Position numbers and translations under genes: made by a program. A DNA stretch of 64,000 nucleotides. Origin: Haloprofundus salilacus. GTDB lineage: Archaea; Halobacteriota; Halobacteria; Halobacteriales; Haloferacaceae. Shown here piece by piece: positions 7,279 to 58,368 of the stretch; the stretch's first letter is position 1, and each line of letters opens with the position of its first letter. The notes beneath the pieces are model-generated. The model was given only the letters and a program-made list of their open reading frames with translations, made no database searches and was not told the origin of the DNA. The stretch covers positions 2,604,001 to 2,668,000 of the forward strand of contig NZ_CP083723.1 in NCBI RefSeq assembly GCF_020150815.1, written 5' to 3'.

Positions 7279-8052
7279 CTACCGGGCGGTCCACCCACCG
7301 TCGACGGCGAGACACGCGCCGGTCACGTAGCTGGCGGCGTCGCTGGCGAGGAAGACGACGGGTCCGGCCAACTCCTCGGGGTCGGCGAAGCGGTCCAGCG
7401 GCGTTCGGTCGACGATGGACTGCCTGAGTTTGTCGTTCTCGCGCACCTCGGCCGTGAGGTCGGTGGCGACGTAGCCGGGCGCGACGACGTTCGCGCGCAC
7501 GTCGGGCGCCCAGTCGAGCGCGATGCTCTTCGTGACGCCAACGAGGCCGTGCTTCGACGCGACGTAGGGATGTTGCCGCGGCAGACCGACCACCCCGCCG
7601 ACGCTCGCGACGTTGACGAGCGACCCGCCGTCGCTCTCGCCGAGATACCTCGCCGCCTCTTGCGCGCACCGGAACGCGCCGCGGAGGTTCACGTCGAGGA
7701 CGAACTCGTAGCCGTCGGGATCGACGTCCTCGGGTCGGCCGAGCGCCGCGGCGGGGTTGACGCCTGCGTTGTTGACGACGACGTCGACGCCGCCGAAGGC
7801 GTCGGCGGTCTCCTCGAACAGCGCGTGAACCGCGTCGTCGTCGGTCACGTCCGTTGGGACGACGAGGCTCTCGACGCCGTACGATTCGACGGCTTCGGCC
7901 GCCGCCTCCACGTCCGACTCCGTCCGCGAGGTCGGAACGACCGTCGCCCCGGCGGAGGCGAGTCCCTCCGCGATGACGAGACCGATGCCGCGCGTGCCGC
8001 CGGTGACGACGGCGACGCGCCCCGTGAGGTCGAACTGGTCGAGCGCGTTCAT
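7279..8052 (-). CDS. short-chain dehydrogenase/reductase (3-oxoacyl reductase-like)
   Basis: A 257-residue classical SDR with the nucleotide loop VTGGTRGIG (about residues 17-25), the NNAGVNPAAA segment, and the catalytic YVASK (Tyr and Lys spaced by three). The C-terminus VTGACLAVDGGWTAR is typical of the 3-oxoacyl-ACP/CoA reductase or 3-hydroxyacid dehydrogenase branch. Its ATG overlaps the stop codon of the upstream acyl-CoA ligase (ATGA at 8049-8052), so the two are translationally coupled. In a levulinate-like scheme such an SDR would interconvert a 4-oxo and a 4-hydroxy acyl-CoA; ordinary 3-hydroxyacyl-CoA oxidation is equally possible. Confidence 0.9.
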   Translation of the reverse strand: MNALDQFDLTGRVAVVTGGTRGIGLVIAEGLASAGATVVPTSRTESDVEAAAEAVESYGVESLVVPTDVTDDDAVHALFEETADAFGGVDVVVNNAGVNPAAALGRPEDVDPDGYEFVLDVNLRGAFRCAQEAARYLGESDGGSLVNVASVGGVVGLPRQHPYVASKHGLVGVTKSIALDWAPDVRANVVAPGYVATDLTAEVRENDKLRQSIVDRTPLDRFADPEELAGPVVFLASDAASYVTGACLAVDGGWTAR

Positions 8053-9611
8053 CGTTCCCCCTCCTCGGACTTCGCGCCTTTCTCTGTCTCGCGGTCCCAG
8101 TGGTTCGGCTCCTCCTCACGCTCGCGGGAGCGGAGCTTCTGCTTCTGAATCTTCCCCGTGGGCGTGTAGGGGAATTCATCGACTAACTCGATATATCGCG
8201 GGACTTTGAACGACGCCAACTGTGCGCGACACGTCTCGACGATCTCCTCCTCGGTGAGTTCGTGGCCTTCCTTGACGCTGACGAGCGCCTTGACCACCTC
8301 CGTGTAGAACTCGTCGGGACTCGGGATGACCGCCACCTCGTCGACGGCGTCGAGCGCCTTGATGACGCCCTCGACCTCGTACGAGGAGATGTTCTCGCCC
8401 GCCCGCCGGACGATGTCCTTCTTGCGGTCGAGGAAGTAGACGAAGCCGTCCTCGTCGAGTTTGCCGTAGTCGCCCGTGTAGAACCAGCCGTCGTCGACGG
8501 CCTCGGCGGTCTTGTCGGGTTGGCAGTGGTAGCCGGCCATCAGCGCCGGGCAGTTCTGGATTATCTCGCCTTTCTCGCCGGTCGGAACGGGGTCGCCGTC
8601 GTCGTCGACGATTCGAATCCGCTTCTCGGCCGGCGGGAGACCGATGCTGCCGATGCGGCGCTTCTCGGGGTCGGTCGGATTGAGCATCAGAAGCGGGTCC
8701 TCAGTGAGCGAGTAGCCCTCGACGACGCGCAGGCCAAAGCGCTCCTCGAACGGTTCGATGAGTTCCGGCGGCGTCCCCGCCGAGAAGACGAGTTCGACCG
8801 GGTTGTCTGCGTCGTCGGGCGACTCGGCGACGTTGTCGAGCATCTTCAGCATGCTCCCCATCGCGTTGAACTCGGTGACGCCGTGCTCGCGGCACCACTC
8901 CCACCACCGCGACGAGGAGAACCGTTCATAGATGACGACCTCCGCACCCGCCGCCGCCGCGCCGAGCGTCGAGTAAATCTGGGCGTTGGCGTGGAATAGC
9001 GGCAGCGCGGTGAACAGCGTGTCCTCGTGGGTGAAGCCCATCCGCTTCTGGAAGTCGACCGCGCTCAGCGTCCAGTTCTCGTGCTGGCACTCGACGGCCT
9101 TCGGCGGTCCCGTCGTCCCCGAGGTGTACATGTGCAGGCCGACCGAGGTTTCGTCGCCCTCGTGGGGGTCGACGTCCGTCGATTGGTCGGCCGCGAGTGC
9201 CGGCAGCGACTCGTACTCGTCGATGTCCTCAGTCGTCAGAATCCGCTCGACGCTCGTTCCCTCGACGGCTTCCTCGGCGACTTCGAGGAGGTCGGGCGTC
9301 GTGACGAGCAGTTCCGGCCGCGAGAGTTTCAGCGAGTGACGCAGTTCGTCCGGCTTGTACTCGGGATTCGACGGCGCGGTAACGCTGTCGACGTACGCGT
9401 TCGCGAACATGAGAAAGAGGAACTCCGGACAGTTCGGCAGGAACAGCCCGACTGCGTCGTCCGCGTCGACGCCGAGCGACGACAGCGCGTTCGCGTACCG
9501 CTTCGACTCGTCGGCCACCTCCCGGTAGCTGTATCGAGCGTCCGGAAACGTCAGAAACGGCTTCTGCGGTGTTTTCTCGACTCGCGTTTCGAGCAGTGCT
9601 TCGATGCGCAT
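8049..9611 (-). CDS. AMP-forming acyl-CoA ligase
   Basis: A 520-residue ANL-family ligase with MYTSGTTGPPKAVE as the phosphate-binding loop (about residue 165), VEGYSLTEDPLL as the adenine motif, GDYGKLDEDGFVYFLDRKKD at the hinge, and the C-terminal lysine in PYTPTGKIQKQKLR. It is the first gene of a two-gene unit with the SDR. It lies divergent from the iron alcohol dehydrogenase, sharing a 116-bp intergenic region that contains a clean inverted repeat. The acyl substrate is unknown. Closest named groups are crotonobetaine/carnitine-CoA ligase-like and cyclohexanecarboxylate-CoA ligase-like proteins. Confidence 0.9.
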   Translation of the reverse strand: MRIEALLETRVEKTPQKPFLTFPDARYSYREVADESKRYANALSSLGVDADDAVGLFLPNCPEFLFLMFANAYVDSVTAPSNPEYKPDELRHSLKLSRPELLVTTPDLLEVAEEAVEGTSVERILTTEDIDEYESLPALAADQSTDVDPHEGDETSVGLHMYTSGTTGPPKAVECQHENWTLSAVDFQKRMGFTHEDTLFTALPLFHANAQIYSTLGAAAAGAEVVIYERFSSSRWWEWCREHGVTEFNAMGSMLKMLDNVAESPDDADNPVELVFSAGTPPELIEPFEERFGLRVVEGYSLTEDPLLMLNPTDPEKRRIGSIGLPPAEKRIRIVDDDGDPVPTGEKGEIIQNCPALMAGYHCQPDKTAEAVDDGWFYTGDYGKLDEDGFVYFLDRKKDIVRRAGENISSYEVEGVIKALDAVDEVAVIPSPDEFYTEVVKALVSVKEGHELTEEEIVETCRAQLASFKVPRYIELVDEFPYTPTGKIQKQKLRSREREEEPNHWDRETEKGAKSEEGER

Positions 9612-54889: not shown

Positions 54890-55675
54890 ATGGACCTCGG
54901 AGTATCCGGAGACGTAGCACTGGTGACGGCGAGTTCGAGCGGCCTCGGCCACGCGAGCGCCGAGTCGCTGGCGGCCGAAGGCGCACACGTTGTCGTCTGC
55001 GGCCGCGACGAGGAGAGACTCGACGCGGCGGCCGAGAAACTGGAGTCGGTCGGCGACGGCGACGTGCTCGCGGTGCCGACGGACCTCACCGACCGCGACG
55101 ACGTCGCGGCGCTCGTGGAGGCGACCGTCGAAGAGTTCGGCCAGTTGGACCACCTCGTCACCTCCGCGGGCGGCCCGCCGAGTGGGAGTTTCGACGATAT
55201 GTCCTCCGAGGACTGGTACGGCGCGTACGACCTGCTCGTGATGAGCGCCGTCTGGACCGTCAAGGAGGCCGAACCCCACCTGAAGGAGAGCGACGCGGGC
55301 ACCATCACCTGCATCACGTCGACGAGCGTCCGAGAGGTCATCGACGACCTCATCCTCTCGAACAGCGTCCGCCGCGGCGTCATCGGCCTCGTCAAGTCGC
55401 TCTCGCGGGAGTTCGCCCCCGACGTGCGAGTCAACGCCGTCTTGCCGGGCGCACACGAGACCTCGCGCGTCGAGGAACTCGTGGAGGACGCCGTCGAACG
55501 CGGCGACGTCGATAGCTACGAGGAAGGGCTAGAGGGCTGGTCGAACGGCATCCCGATGGGCCGCATCGGCAAGCCCGAGGAACTGGGCGATACCGTCGCG
55601 TTCCTCGCGAGCGACCGCGCGAGTTTCGTAAACGGCGTCGCGCTCCCCGTCGACGGCGGGAAGCTGCGGAGCTAG
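54890..55675 (+). CDS. short-chain dehydrogenase/reductase
   Basis: A 261-residue classical SDR with TASSSGLGHASAESLAAEGA (glycine-rich loop, here Ser-rich), NVVT-like SAGGPPSGSF, and Asn/Ser in TCITSTSVREVI. The usual YxxxK is not obvious: the segment SVRRGVIGLVKSL suggests Tyr is replaced, with Lys retained. This divergent active site resembles the haloarchaeal 3-oxoacyl-ACP-reductase-like SDRs, so the substrate is unclear. The ATG at 54890 is at the natural N-terminus. It is separate from the Tfx gene by 79 bp. Confidence 0.85.
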   Translation: MDLGVSGDVALVTASSSGLGHASAESLAAEGAHVVVCGRDEERLDAAAEKLESVGDGDVLAVPTDLTDRDDVAALVEATVEEFGQLDHLVTSAGGPPSGSFDDMSSEDWYGAYDLLVMSAVWTVKEAEPHLKESDAGTITCITSTSVREVIDDLILSNSVRRGVIGLVKSLSREFAPDVRVNAVLPGAHETSRVEELVEDAVERGDVDSYEEGLEGWSNGIPMGRIGKPEELGDTVAFLASDRASFVNGVALPVDGGKLRS

Positions 55676-55686
55676 CCCTCATGGCC

Positions 55687-55911
55687 TCAGTCACCGGTCG
55701 AGGGCGGAATCTTGTCGGGAGATCGGCCCGTTCTAAGACGAATTTTGCTCCGCATCGCGTCGGCTTTCTCGTCGGCGGACTGTTCATCCACCATATTGGT
55801 GCTAACCTCTCTGTCGCTGTCGAAGATGAACGTCAATTGTGCGTGGACGGGACTAACAGTCAATGACGTAATGAATGATCTTGGGCTGCTAATGGCTACC
55901 TCAGCATACAA
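55687..55911 (-). CDS. doubtful short ORF at the edge of the AT-rich islet
   Basis: 74 codons, or 36 from the internal ATG at 55794 (MVDEQSADEKADAMRSKIRL). The C-terminal part has plausible composition for a haloarchaeal protein, but the N-terminal half does not. It could be a gene remnant or chance. I keep it only because this side of the islet has no other gene. Confidence 0.25.
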   Translation of the reverse strand: MYAEVAISSPRSFITSLTVSPVHAQLTFIFDSDREVSTNMVDEQSADEKADAMRSKIRLRTGRSPDKIPPSTGD

Positions 55912-55915
55912 CCGC

Positions 55916-56063
55916 CATTAATATATCCGAATTGATAAGTTTCTGTACATCAGTACTGGAGTTCTTCGGCTGTGTACTATATTCTATCTATCCTATTTAT
56001 CATTTATAAATTCGTCTAGGCTGATTATACCACCAGAGGATAAATTATAAATTACTGATTTAG
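55916..56063. other. AT-rich left edge of the islet
   Basis: About 150 bp with runs such as TTTATCATTTATAAATTCG, the most AT-rich stretch of the window. At least two TATA-like boxes face right (ATTTATAAATT at 56003-56013 and CTTATAAT at 56067-56074). No gene is recognised. The composition contrasts sharply with the high-GC DNA on both sides. Confidence 0.6.
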
Positions 56064-56168
56064 AATCTTATAATTGCGATTGGAGATAGACAATATAAAG
56101 CGAGCAGGAGAAGCGCGATTAAGATCGTAGCAGCGGGTACCGGAGTAGTTGGCGGAGTTCGACCTCTG

Positions 56169-56996
56169 ATGCAGACGGTTGCAGCAGATTCGGTAAACCG
56201 TGACTTCGAAGATTCCGACAGTGATTCGTCCGGGAGTAAGATCCTCGAGCATGGAACTCTTCTCCGTCAGTACGATGCCCGAGCAGTGAGTGGTACGGTG
56301 GACTATTGGCAAATCAAGTTCGAGATGTTGACCAACTCCATCTCCTACGACGGTGACAACACCTACAATGGGATGAAAGGCAATAGTACGGATGTCACAT
56401 CAAGCCACAACAAGTGGAACACTAATGATACGAAATACTGGGTGGGTAGCGGAACAACTCAACAAGAGGAGGCCGATGAGTACGACCACATCTCGAACTT
56501 AGCGGGTGACTTCGCAGGTATCATCCCGGTACTCGGGGATGCCCTAACCGCATTTGAAGTTCTCGTTCACCTGACGGATTTATTTGAGGACGCTGGAGGC
56601 GAGGTCATCAATCGCGATTGGACTTGGGGTGACGCATTCAGCGGTGCTCCTCAGAGTGAAATCTTCAATAGATTCGATGCGGAATGCGATCCTGGCGAAC
56701 GCGCCGGGTTTACAGCCACGGACTACGCGTCGGCAGAGAGATATGATGGTACCGGGAAATTCCTCAGCGCAGAGACGGAATTTCTAGTAAACTTCGCTGC
56801 ACCAGAAACGAGCCCGTCTTCGCTGACGCGAATGTCAGCCTCGTCTTTGGAGTCAAAGGGGATCAGTACAGTGTCGGCAAAACAGATCAGGAGAAATCCT
56901 CTAAAATACGGTTTCACTCCCAGGGAGGCGAGTGACCTAAAACCAAGTGATATTGTCTACTTCGCACCGGTCGATATCGAAGTCACTACAGGGTAG
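56169..56996 (+). CDS. unknown, probably secreted protein of an acquired islet
   Basis: 275 residues from the ATG at 56169; no named family recognised. In-frame codons upstream, back to 56064, encode SRRSAIKIVAAGTGVVGG, a Tat-like twin-arginine signal, but no ATG, GTG or TTG lies in that frame. The protein is rich in N, T, S, D and Y. It contains a Gly/Leu hydrophobic stretch AGIIPVLGDALTAFEVLVHL (about residues 117-136) followed by LTDLFED, and a basic segment KQIRRNPLKYGFTPREASDL near the end. Low GC and the convergent small membrane gene suggest a horizontally acquired pair. Confidence 0.65.
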   Translation: MQTVAADSVNRDFEDSDSDSSGSKILEHGTLLRQYDARAVSGTVDYWQIKFEMLTNSISYDGDNTYNGMKGNSTDVTSSHNKWNTNDTKYWVGSGTTQQEEADEYDHISNLAGDFAGIIPVLGDALTAFEVLVHLTDLFEDAGGEVINRDWTWGDAFSGAPQSEIFNRFDAECDPGERAGFTATDYASAERYDGTGKFLSAETEFLVNFAAPETSPSSLTRMSASSLESKGISTVSAKQIRRNPLKYGFTPREASDLKPSDIVYFAPVDIEVTTG

Positions 56997-57015
56997 TTCA
57001 AAGACGCTCCAAATA

Positions 57016-57192
57016 TCATTTTTTGAGATGCCAGTAAACTCCGCCCACTATTATTCCGGTTATTGCTAAAGTAAGGGCGTATCCAGCCGGTCCAGTAACG
57101 ACTGAAGAGACGACAAGTCCCACGAGAATGAGAATTCCAACGACCCCTGCAAACACCATCCGAAACTTGAAATAATCTTCTGGGAGTTCCAT
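57016..57192 (-). CDS. 58-residue two-helix membrane protein
   Basis: Starts MELPEDYFKFRMVFAGVVGI. Two hydrophobic helices are clear: about residues 12-33 and 37-54 (YALTLAITGIIVGGVYW), with a short GPAG turn. It ends HLKK. It converges on the unknown protein at 56169-56996 with a 19-bp gap and shares its low GC. The layout (small two-helix membrane protein beside a possibly secreted protein) is like an immunity or accessory protein, which is inference only. Confidence 0.7.
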   Translation of the reverse strand: MELPEDYFKFRMVFAGVVGILILVGLVVSSVVTGPAGYALTLAITGIIVGGVYWHLKK

Positions 57193-57351
57193 GATTTTTC
57201 TGATAATTGAGAAGTGATAAATCTACCTCCGTAACGTCAAGGGAGGATATTGGGATAAAGGGGCGAAGCAGAACATAACGGATTCAAGACGGGTAGCACG
57301 AGGGGCGATAGTTCGAAGCGGAAGAAATTCCGGAGGGCACCAATCCCAAGC

Positions 57352-58368
57352 TCAGAATAGCCCCTCCGCCTTCAGCACCGAAACCACCTCTCTCACGCGC
57401 TGCGCCCCCTCCTTCGGCACGACGAGCACCCGGTCGTCGTAGGCGACGACGGCGAGTCCGTCGACGCCGACCAGCGAGACGTGTTTGTCGTCGCTGGCGA
57501 CGACGTTATCCGCCGCGTCGATGGCCAGATAGTCGCCGAGCGCGACGTTACCGTCCTCGTCGGCGTCGAGCACGCGTTCGAGCGCGTCCCACGACCCTAA
57601 ATCGTCCCAGTCGAACGTCGCGGAGACGACGGCGGCGTGGTCGGCGCGCTCCATCACCGCGTAGTCGACGCTCACGTCGTCGACGGCGGCGAATCCCGCT
57701 TCTTCGTTTCCGTCGTCGAGCGCGTCGACGAGGGGTGCGAGTTCCGTGTCGCGGGCGGCGGTGAGGAACGCATCGGGCGTCCACGCGAAGATGCCCGCGT
57801 TCCACAGATACCCCGAATCGACGTATTCGGCTGCAGTTTCACTATCTGGTTTCTCGTGGAACGCCGCGAGGTCGGCGTGCGGTTCGGGTTTTTCGCGCCG
57901 CTCGCCGGGTTCGATATAGCCGTAGCCGGTGTCCGGTCGAGTGGGTTCGACGCCGAAGGTGACGAGCGCGCCCGTCTCGGCCGCGACGCGAGCGCCCGCG
58001 CGGGCGACGGATTCGAAGTTCCCAGAAACGGTGTGGTCGCTCGGGAGGACGAGCACGACGCAGTCACCGACTTCCTCGCGGATGCGGTGGGTCGCGTACG
58101 TCAGCGCCGGACCGGTGTCCTTGCCTTCGGGTTCAACGAGCACCGTCGCTTCGGGGGCGTGCTCGGGGATCTCGTCGGCGAAATCAGAGCGGGTACAGAC
58201 GAACAAGTGGTCGGCGAAGCTCGCACGTTCAGCGGTTTGCGAGAGTAGCGAGTCGTCGTCCGACGCCGACAGCGAGAGGTACTGTTTCGGGCGGTGGCTC
58301 CGACTCGCGGGGTACAGTCGGGTTCCGGTGCCACCGGCGAGTACGAGCGCGACGAGCGGTCTGTCCAT
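57352..58368 (-). CDS. mannose-1-phosphate guanylyltransferase-like nucleotidyltransferase
   Basis: A 338-residue sugar nucleotidyltransferase. The pyrophosphorylase signature is LVLAGGTGTRLYPASRSHRP followed by KQYLSL, and the second signature FHEKPDSETA and NAGIFAW are present. This fits GDP-mannose pyrophosphorylase for glycan or S-layer glycosylation. The C-terminal half has about 110 residues of a shortened beta domain. It begins 64 bp from the DUF7091 gene on the same strand. Confidence 0.92.
   Translation of the reverse strand: MDRPLVALVLAGGTGTRLYPASRSHRPKQYLSLSASDDDSLLSQTAERASFADHLFVCTRSDFADEIPEHAPEATVLVEPEGKDTGPALTYATHRIREEVGDCVVLVLPSDHTVSGNFESVARAGARVAAETGALVTFGVEPTRPDTGYGYIEPGERREKPEPHADLAAFHEKPDSETAAEYVDSGYLWNAGIFAWTPDAFLTAARDTELAPLVDALDDGNEEAGFAAVDDVSVDYAVMERADHAAVVSATFDWDDLGSWDALERVLDADEDGNVALGDYLAIDAADNVVASDDKHVSLVGVDGLAVVAYDDRVLVVPKEGAQRVREVVSVLKAEGLF

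Follow-up and report, generated by a model that had tools for sequence, protein, structure and literature searches.

The window, a 64,000-nucleotide stretch of Haloprofundus salilacus DNA, contains an AT-rich inserted islet of 1.68 kb (positions 55676–57351, no strand assigned), delimited by GC content and congener comparison, that fills the space between the stop codons of two conserved convergent genes, encoding an SDR protein (stop at 55,673–55,675) and a nucleotidyltransferase (stop at 57,352–57,354). GC content dropped from 0.66–0.70 to 0.40–0.54 across ~55,750–57,350, compared to 0.62–0.70 in the two flanks, rising again at the nucleotidyltransferase gene, and upon scanning all 64 kb, we found no 1.5-kb stretch with a lower GC content than 55,801–57,300 (0.474 vs 0.649). 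This agrees with the abrupt drop described in an earlier note on this DNA, and the two convergent open reading frames (ORFs) that it had placed in the islet, of 275 and 58 aa, were located as described. In four other genomes of the genus, the orthologous flanking genes, also convergent (92–98% protein identity for the SDR, 88–93% for the nucleotidyltransferase), nearly abut, with stop-to-stop distances of 12, 18, 142, and 199 bp vs 1,676 bp here, indicating that the islet is either a species-specific insertion or was lost from the four others. This comparison with the empty site had been suggested beforehand, and we encountered no relative carrying the islet at normal GC content. A search of 99 relatives with the islet DNA yielded no copy, only matches of 30–39 bp, and the islet ends showed no convincing boundary repeats, with two-copy matches of 12–16 nt only, as had likewise been noted for direct repeats. 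The islet's left end holds a 74-aa ORF on the minus strand (55687–55911), possibly a gene remnant, for which we found no relatives in 60 genomes; ~30–40 bp of this region are common to three unrelated genomes.

The larger gene encodes a halocin H4-like protein, recognized from the ORF list and by family homology, in a frame that is open from stop to stop at 56064–56996 on the plus strand. Gene callers would place its start at the ATG at 56169, yielding 275 aa (56169–56996, plus strand). We found this start to be too late and the 275-residue extent of the earlier note to be wrong, because a twin-arginine (Tat) signal, YKASRRSAIKIVAAGTGVVGGVRPLMQTVAADS, precedes the ATG in the same open frame. 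The translation before and across the ATG, IAIGDRQYKASRRSAIKIVAAGTGVVGGVRPLMQTVAADS, is that of a typical twin-arginine signal, which spans 56079–56186 (plus strand), with the arginine pair encoded at 56106–56111. Reading the open frame from 56064, we found no in-frame ATG, GTG, or TTG upstream of the arginine pair, such that the twin-arginine sequence SRRSAIKIVAAGTGVVGG lies in the open frame of the protein with no in-frame start of these three kinds, a feature that the earlier note had missed. Non-standard in-frame options are ATA at 56070 and ATT at 56073 and 56079, and starts at AUU and AUA exist in translation table 11. Two TTG codons, at 56074 and 56080, sit one frame off the Tat signal. 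A TATA-box-like TTATAAAT (56046–56053, plus strand), which presumably marks a leaderless promoter, lies 21–34 nt upstream of these candidate TTG starts, and the nearest relative, in genome G023, has a TTG start at the matching place. The window gene may hence use an AUU or AUA start, may have been recently inactivated by a one-base change, or may carry a sequencing or assembly error.

The best-surviving alternative to a functional toxin gene takes up the second of these options. Here, the gene would belong to the same family and be a pseudogene, in which a one-base frame change put the Tat signal out of frame with the TTG start (56074/56080), with no exported toxin being made and the small neighboring protein remaining as an orphan immunity gene. 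The lack of an in-frame ATG, GTG, or TTG before the signal, the TTG start of G023, the fit of the TATA-like box to a start near 56074–56080, and the in-frame stops of other family members (G126b, G228, and G329) all point in this direction, whereas over 300 codons of the frame remain uninterrupted and conserved, AUU and AUA are available as starts, and an assembly error could produce the same picture. We consider this a real possibility that stops short of being probable; with no in-frame standard start codon, the window copy may have been freshly inactivated.

After the signal, the encoded protein comprises ~266–275 residues with one Cys only, and its post-signal hydropathy maximum, at residues 145–152 of the 305-aa reading, together with the family alignment, defines a Gly/Leu-rich hydrophobic region, NLAGDFAGIIPVLGDALTAFEVLVHLTDLF (56496–56585, plus strand), as the candidate membrane-active part. 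Its counterpart in HalH4-like members is their hydrophobic ALTALNPAMGSLALGA region, and the family alignment further revealed a family-wide C-terminal motif, SP..L..M(S/T)..L...GI......I...P, at 56811–56993 (plus strand). In both its size and its hydrophobic region, the protein agrees with the H4 family (mature ~30–35 kDa).

The earlier statement that the large protein belongs to no recognized family holds for the Pfam and NCBIfam scans, which gave no match for either window protein, but not for sequence comparison at large, which places it in a family that includes halocin H4. Pfam scans of the family members returned nothing beyond the Tat signal, the family profile run against PDB sequences gave signal-peptide-like matches only, and no relatives were found in viral contigs or in phage or plasmid records. 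AlphaFold models from three-row alignments were too poor (pLDDT ~34) to be used for a fold search. Among 99 genomes, relatives of the window protein occurred in G023 (35% identity, E=5e-39) and G066 (27%, E=1.5e-8), and a profile of these three members matched 15 of the 392 genomes of the order, including G115 at 6.5e-12; one of the 15, G359, was a spurious short match and was dropped. With a 17-row profile (A2), we found full-length members in one family in ~17 of its 125 genomes and in the window's own family in 5 of 171, where weak matches covering only the first 40–120 positions were taken as shared Tat signals, excluded as members, and used as controls. The Tat signal is near-universal in the family, with A2 column R11 invariant in the 17 members and R10 present in at least 90%. 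Most member genes are AT-rich relative to their own genome (0.40–0.64 vs 0.50–0.71). Stop codons lie inside the frames of G126b, G228, and G329 (L137, L139, and L135), and with several members carrying in-frame stops, decay of H4-like genes is common. Just upstream of the H4-like genes of Natrialba aegyptia and G121 (L147, 3874–4665; L026, 6022–6798) we noticed an HTH-like protein of 258–263 aa, perhaps a regulator.

We linked this family to halocin H4 (HalH4, HFX_5264) of Haloferax mediterranei through intermediates. As query we used a presumed HalH4 sequence, whose mature start (ATGSSVT) and end (QRSRKQ) agree with the PCR primers that PMC12893001 lists as H4F and H4R. This sequence matched G115 at 1.2e-33 over 340 residues, G103 also resembled halocin H4, and orthologues with 53–54% identity were found in Natrinema gari JCM 14663 and Natrialba aegyptia DSM 13077. 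To exclude the signal peptides as the cause of the similarity, we removed them and built mature-only profiles outward from the window group, leaving out all H4-like members. The first three-member profile detected HalH4 at 22.5 bits (E 2e-5, 5000 sequences), and after one extension the score rose to 98.9 bits (E ~1e-28, 5000 sequences). With the extended profile, 500 HalH4 shuffles and reversed members reached at most 5.1 bits and the control Tat proteins at most 6.1, all but two, which gave partial matches of 19.7 and 32.2 bits; one of these is a 1907-aa protein with local similarity to the family. This protein, encoded on the minus strand at L171 (G317:C1:2310000-2324000), contains PKD-like repeats, and its residues ~177–287 resemble the middle of the family at 27–32 bits. 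The tree joined HalH4 to its orthologues from N. gari and N. aegyptia (100/99) and paired the window protein with the member from G023, likewise at 100/99. From these comparisons, it is well supported that the window protein belongs to a haloarchaeal family of predicted Tat-exported proteins that includes halocin H4. The earlier suggestion of a Tat-exported, halocin-like protein thus gained support from the family's Tat signals and the HalH4 profile similarity, and the prospect that the protein might turn out to be an intracellular enzyme did not materialize.

Compared with the known halocins, the window protein shares with HalH4 the ~30-kDa mature protein, the hydrophobic Gly/Leu/Ala region, the C-terminal motif, and significant profile similarity of the mature part, and a Tat-type signal, as in HalH4, is present in its open frame. 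Unlike HalH4, the window gene has no standard in-frame start, and identity to the H4-like members is only ~17–28%. Halocin C8/HalI, made from the single precursor ProC8, is likewise a haloarchaeal antimicrobial with Tat export and proteolytic maturation; its immunity is provided by the N-terminal portion of that precursor, whereas the candidate immunity protein of the window is a separate gene. Halocin C8 is Cys-rich, and we rejected membership of the C8 family for the window protein, which has a single Cys and no Cys-rich C-terminal peptide. HalH4 is reported to be cleaved by the protease HlyR4, which frees an antimicrobial C-terminal fragment (PMC12893001). HFX_0892 (HmHapP) is, as we propose for the window protein, a secreted precursor activated by a halolysin, but it releases an N-terminal active fragment rather than a C-terminal one as in HalH4 (PMC12893001). 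The window genome has nine matches to Peptidase_S8, the subtilisin family.

We found small surface-anchored proteins to be a recurrent companion of the family genes. Among the neighbors of the first 17 relatives, a small Tat lipoprotein (twin arginine, then lipobox Cys) of 135–181 aa recurred, and 17 further members, fetched after this pattern had been seen, served as an independent set. A partner was defined identically in all sets as a protein of 90–220 aa with an arginine pair and a lipobox within 600 bp of the toxin gene (extended to 1100 bp for three genes whose frames are interrupted), and with this rule, which was reached after two earlier versions (one over-strict) rather than fixed in advance, a lipoprotein lay beside 9/17 genes of the discovery set, 14/17 of the independent set, and 1/37 of other Tat genes used as controls. 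The first version of the rule, which predates our inspection of the independent set, led to much the same result there. The ORF density in the same loci gave an expectation of ~7% (p = 8e-7 for the discovery and 6e-14 for the independent set), where a few members are near-copies (G258c/G385; G400b-d) and some control loci have short flanks. Overall, 23 of the 34 relatives had an adjacent Tat-lipobox lipoprotein by script, and 25 upon adding two read by eye (G126, 536 bp away; G400c, truncated, 47 bp away); G288, G275, and G140 are members with no recognized partner. The H4 orthologues of N. gari and N. aegyptia each have a convergent Tat lipoprotein of 135–139 aa at 45–85 bp. As the partners are found on both sides of the toxin genes and in both orientations, it is the linkage that is conserved and not the operon order; they also fall into several sequence groups, and partner type does not agree with the toxin tree. 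For a diverse set of small proteins that are anchored to the surface and linked to a secreted antimicrobial, the simplest role would, by analogy, be immunity. In G400 (L039 in reverse orientation, 7850–9075; L129; L130), three closely related H4-like toxins each precede a set of one to three lipoproteins that are related to one another and in some cases truncated, possibly a repeated toxin-immunity array. The literature searched contained no published immunity gene for HalH4, and we know of none.

At the window's toxin gene there is no adjacent Tat-lipobox lipoprotein; in its place, the minus strand at 57016–57192 encodes a 58-aa protein with two predicted transmembrane helices, identified from the ORF list and hydropathy, which is our candidate immunity protein. 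It is convergent with the toxin gene, 19 bp from its stop, thereby filling the downstream slot that a lipoprotein often holds in relatives, and a TATA-box-like TTTATC (57216–57221, minus strand), presumably a leaderless promoter, lies 24–29 nt upstream of its ATG. The basic residues (KFR, KK) suggest that both ends face the inside. The main doubt about this assignment is that the 58-aa protein could be unrelated to the toxin, the AT-rich DNA having either given rise to an ORF by chance or harbored an independent small membrane gene. No search that we made found relatives of it, partner type is out of step with the toxin tree, and small two-helix neighbors accompany 8–11% of control Tat genes (3/37 at 150 bp), with no significant enrichment of such neighbors near family genes relative to the 37 controls. 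Its convergent position in the lipoprotein slot and the TATA-like box at leaderless distance speak against this, as do the dinucleotide shuffles of the region, only 2/3000 of which gave an ORF that begins with ATG, reaches at least 55 aa, and encodes two hydrophobic helices, making a chance origin unlikely. Small membrane proteins also occur downstream of the toxin genes of G121 (72 aa, 50 bp) and G400 (131 aa, 16 bp), and 366 bp upstream of that of G066; the resulting link between such proteins and the family toxins is suggestive only. A kinship of the 58-aa protein with the G066 protein, based on a KFR...KK pattern (shuffle p = 0.04), is not claimed. On balance, an unrelated small gene seems rather unlikely to us. 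The immunity or accessory partner proposed in the earlier note stands by analogy with the lipoproteins beside most relatives, but not on the 58-aa protein's own homology or on neighbor enrichment.

Taken together, we consider the islet to be, probably, a horizontally acquired cassette of a halocin H4-type toxin and its immunity protein, the latter in a 58-aa membrane variant. If still expressed, the large gene would yield a precursor exported by the Tat pathway, which a halolysin (subtilisin-type protease) outside the cell would cleave into a membrane-active fragment. The conserved hydrophobic region would then insert into the membrane of competitors, inhibiting other haloarchaea, while the 58-aa two-helix protein in the producer's own membrane would block the toxin, a task that in most relatives probably falls to the Tat-exported lipoprotein. 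Lipoproteins and small membrane proteins also provide immunity to bacterial bacteriocins, as for NisI and microcin V immunity; like the window pair, these combine a small anchored protein with a secreted toxin, a likeness of layout only. That the pair instead combines a secreted protein for surface interaction or adhesion with an accessory protein in the membrane appears improbable. In favor of this reading, proteins that are secreted, variable, and patchy in their distribution may be surface factors too, and the 1907-aa protein with PKD-like repeats weakly matches the family's middle part; the homology to an experimentally known halocin, the consistent small surface-anchored partner in the family, and the lack of repeats and sorting signals argue against it.

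In the proposed toxin-immunity cassette, the toxin belongs, as a remote member, to a type already known; as far as we found, what appears new is the partner linkage and the membrane-protein version in the window, for neither of which a non-exhaustive literature search returned a description. According to a 2024 review, most halocins have not been fully sequenced and are hence hard to detect in other taxa (PMC11509114). We lean, by a modest degree, toward a wider view in which HalH4 is one of a large, fast-diverging family of haloarchaeal toxins whose AT-rich cassettes move horizontally and pair every toxin with a surface-anchored immunity protein of its own, in most cases a Tat lipoprotein and sometimes a small membrane protein, with partner types being swapped in the course of evolution and the window carrying the smallest, membrane-type version. 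The family provides ~34 further halocin candidates with likely partners, including the N. gari and N. aegyptia orthologues, which makes halocin immunity directly testable by simple expression assays. Our observations also suggest that some short AT-rich islets of haloarchaea hold conflict cassettes that annotation has overlooked, because their start codons are TTG or absent and their families are not in Pfam.
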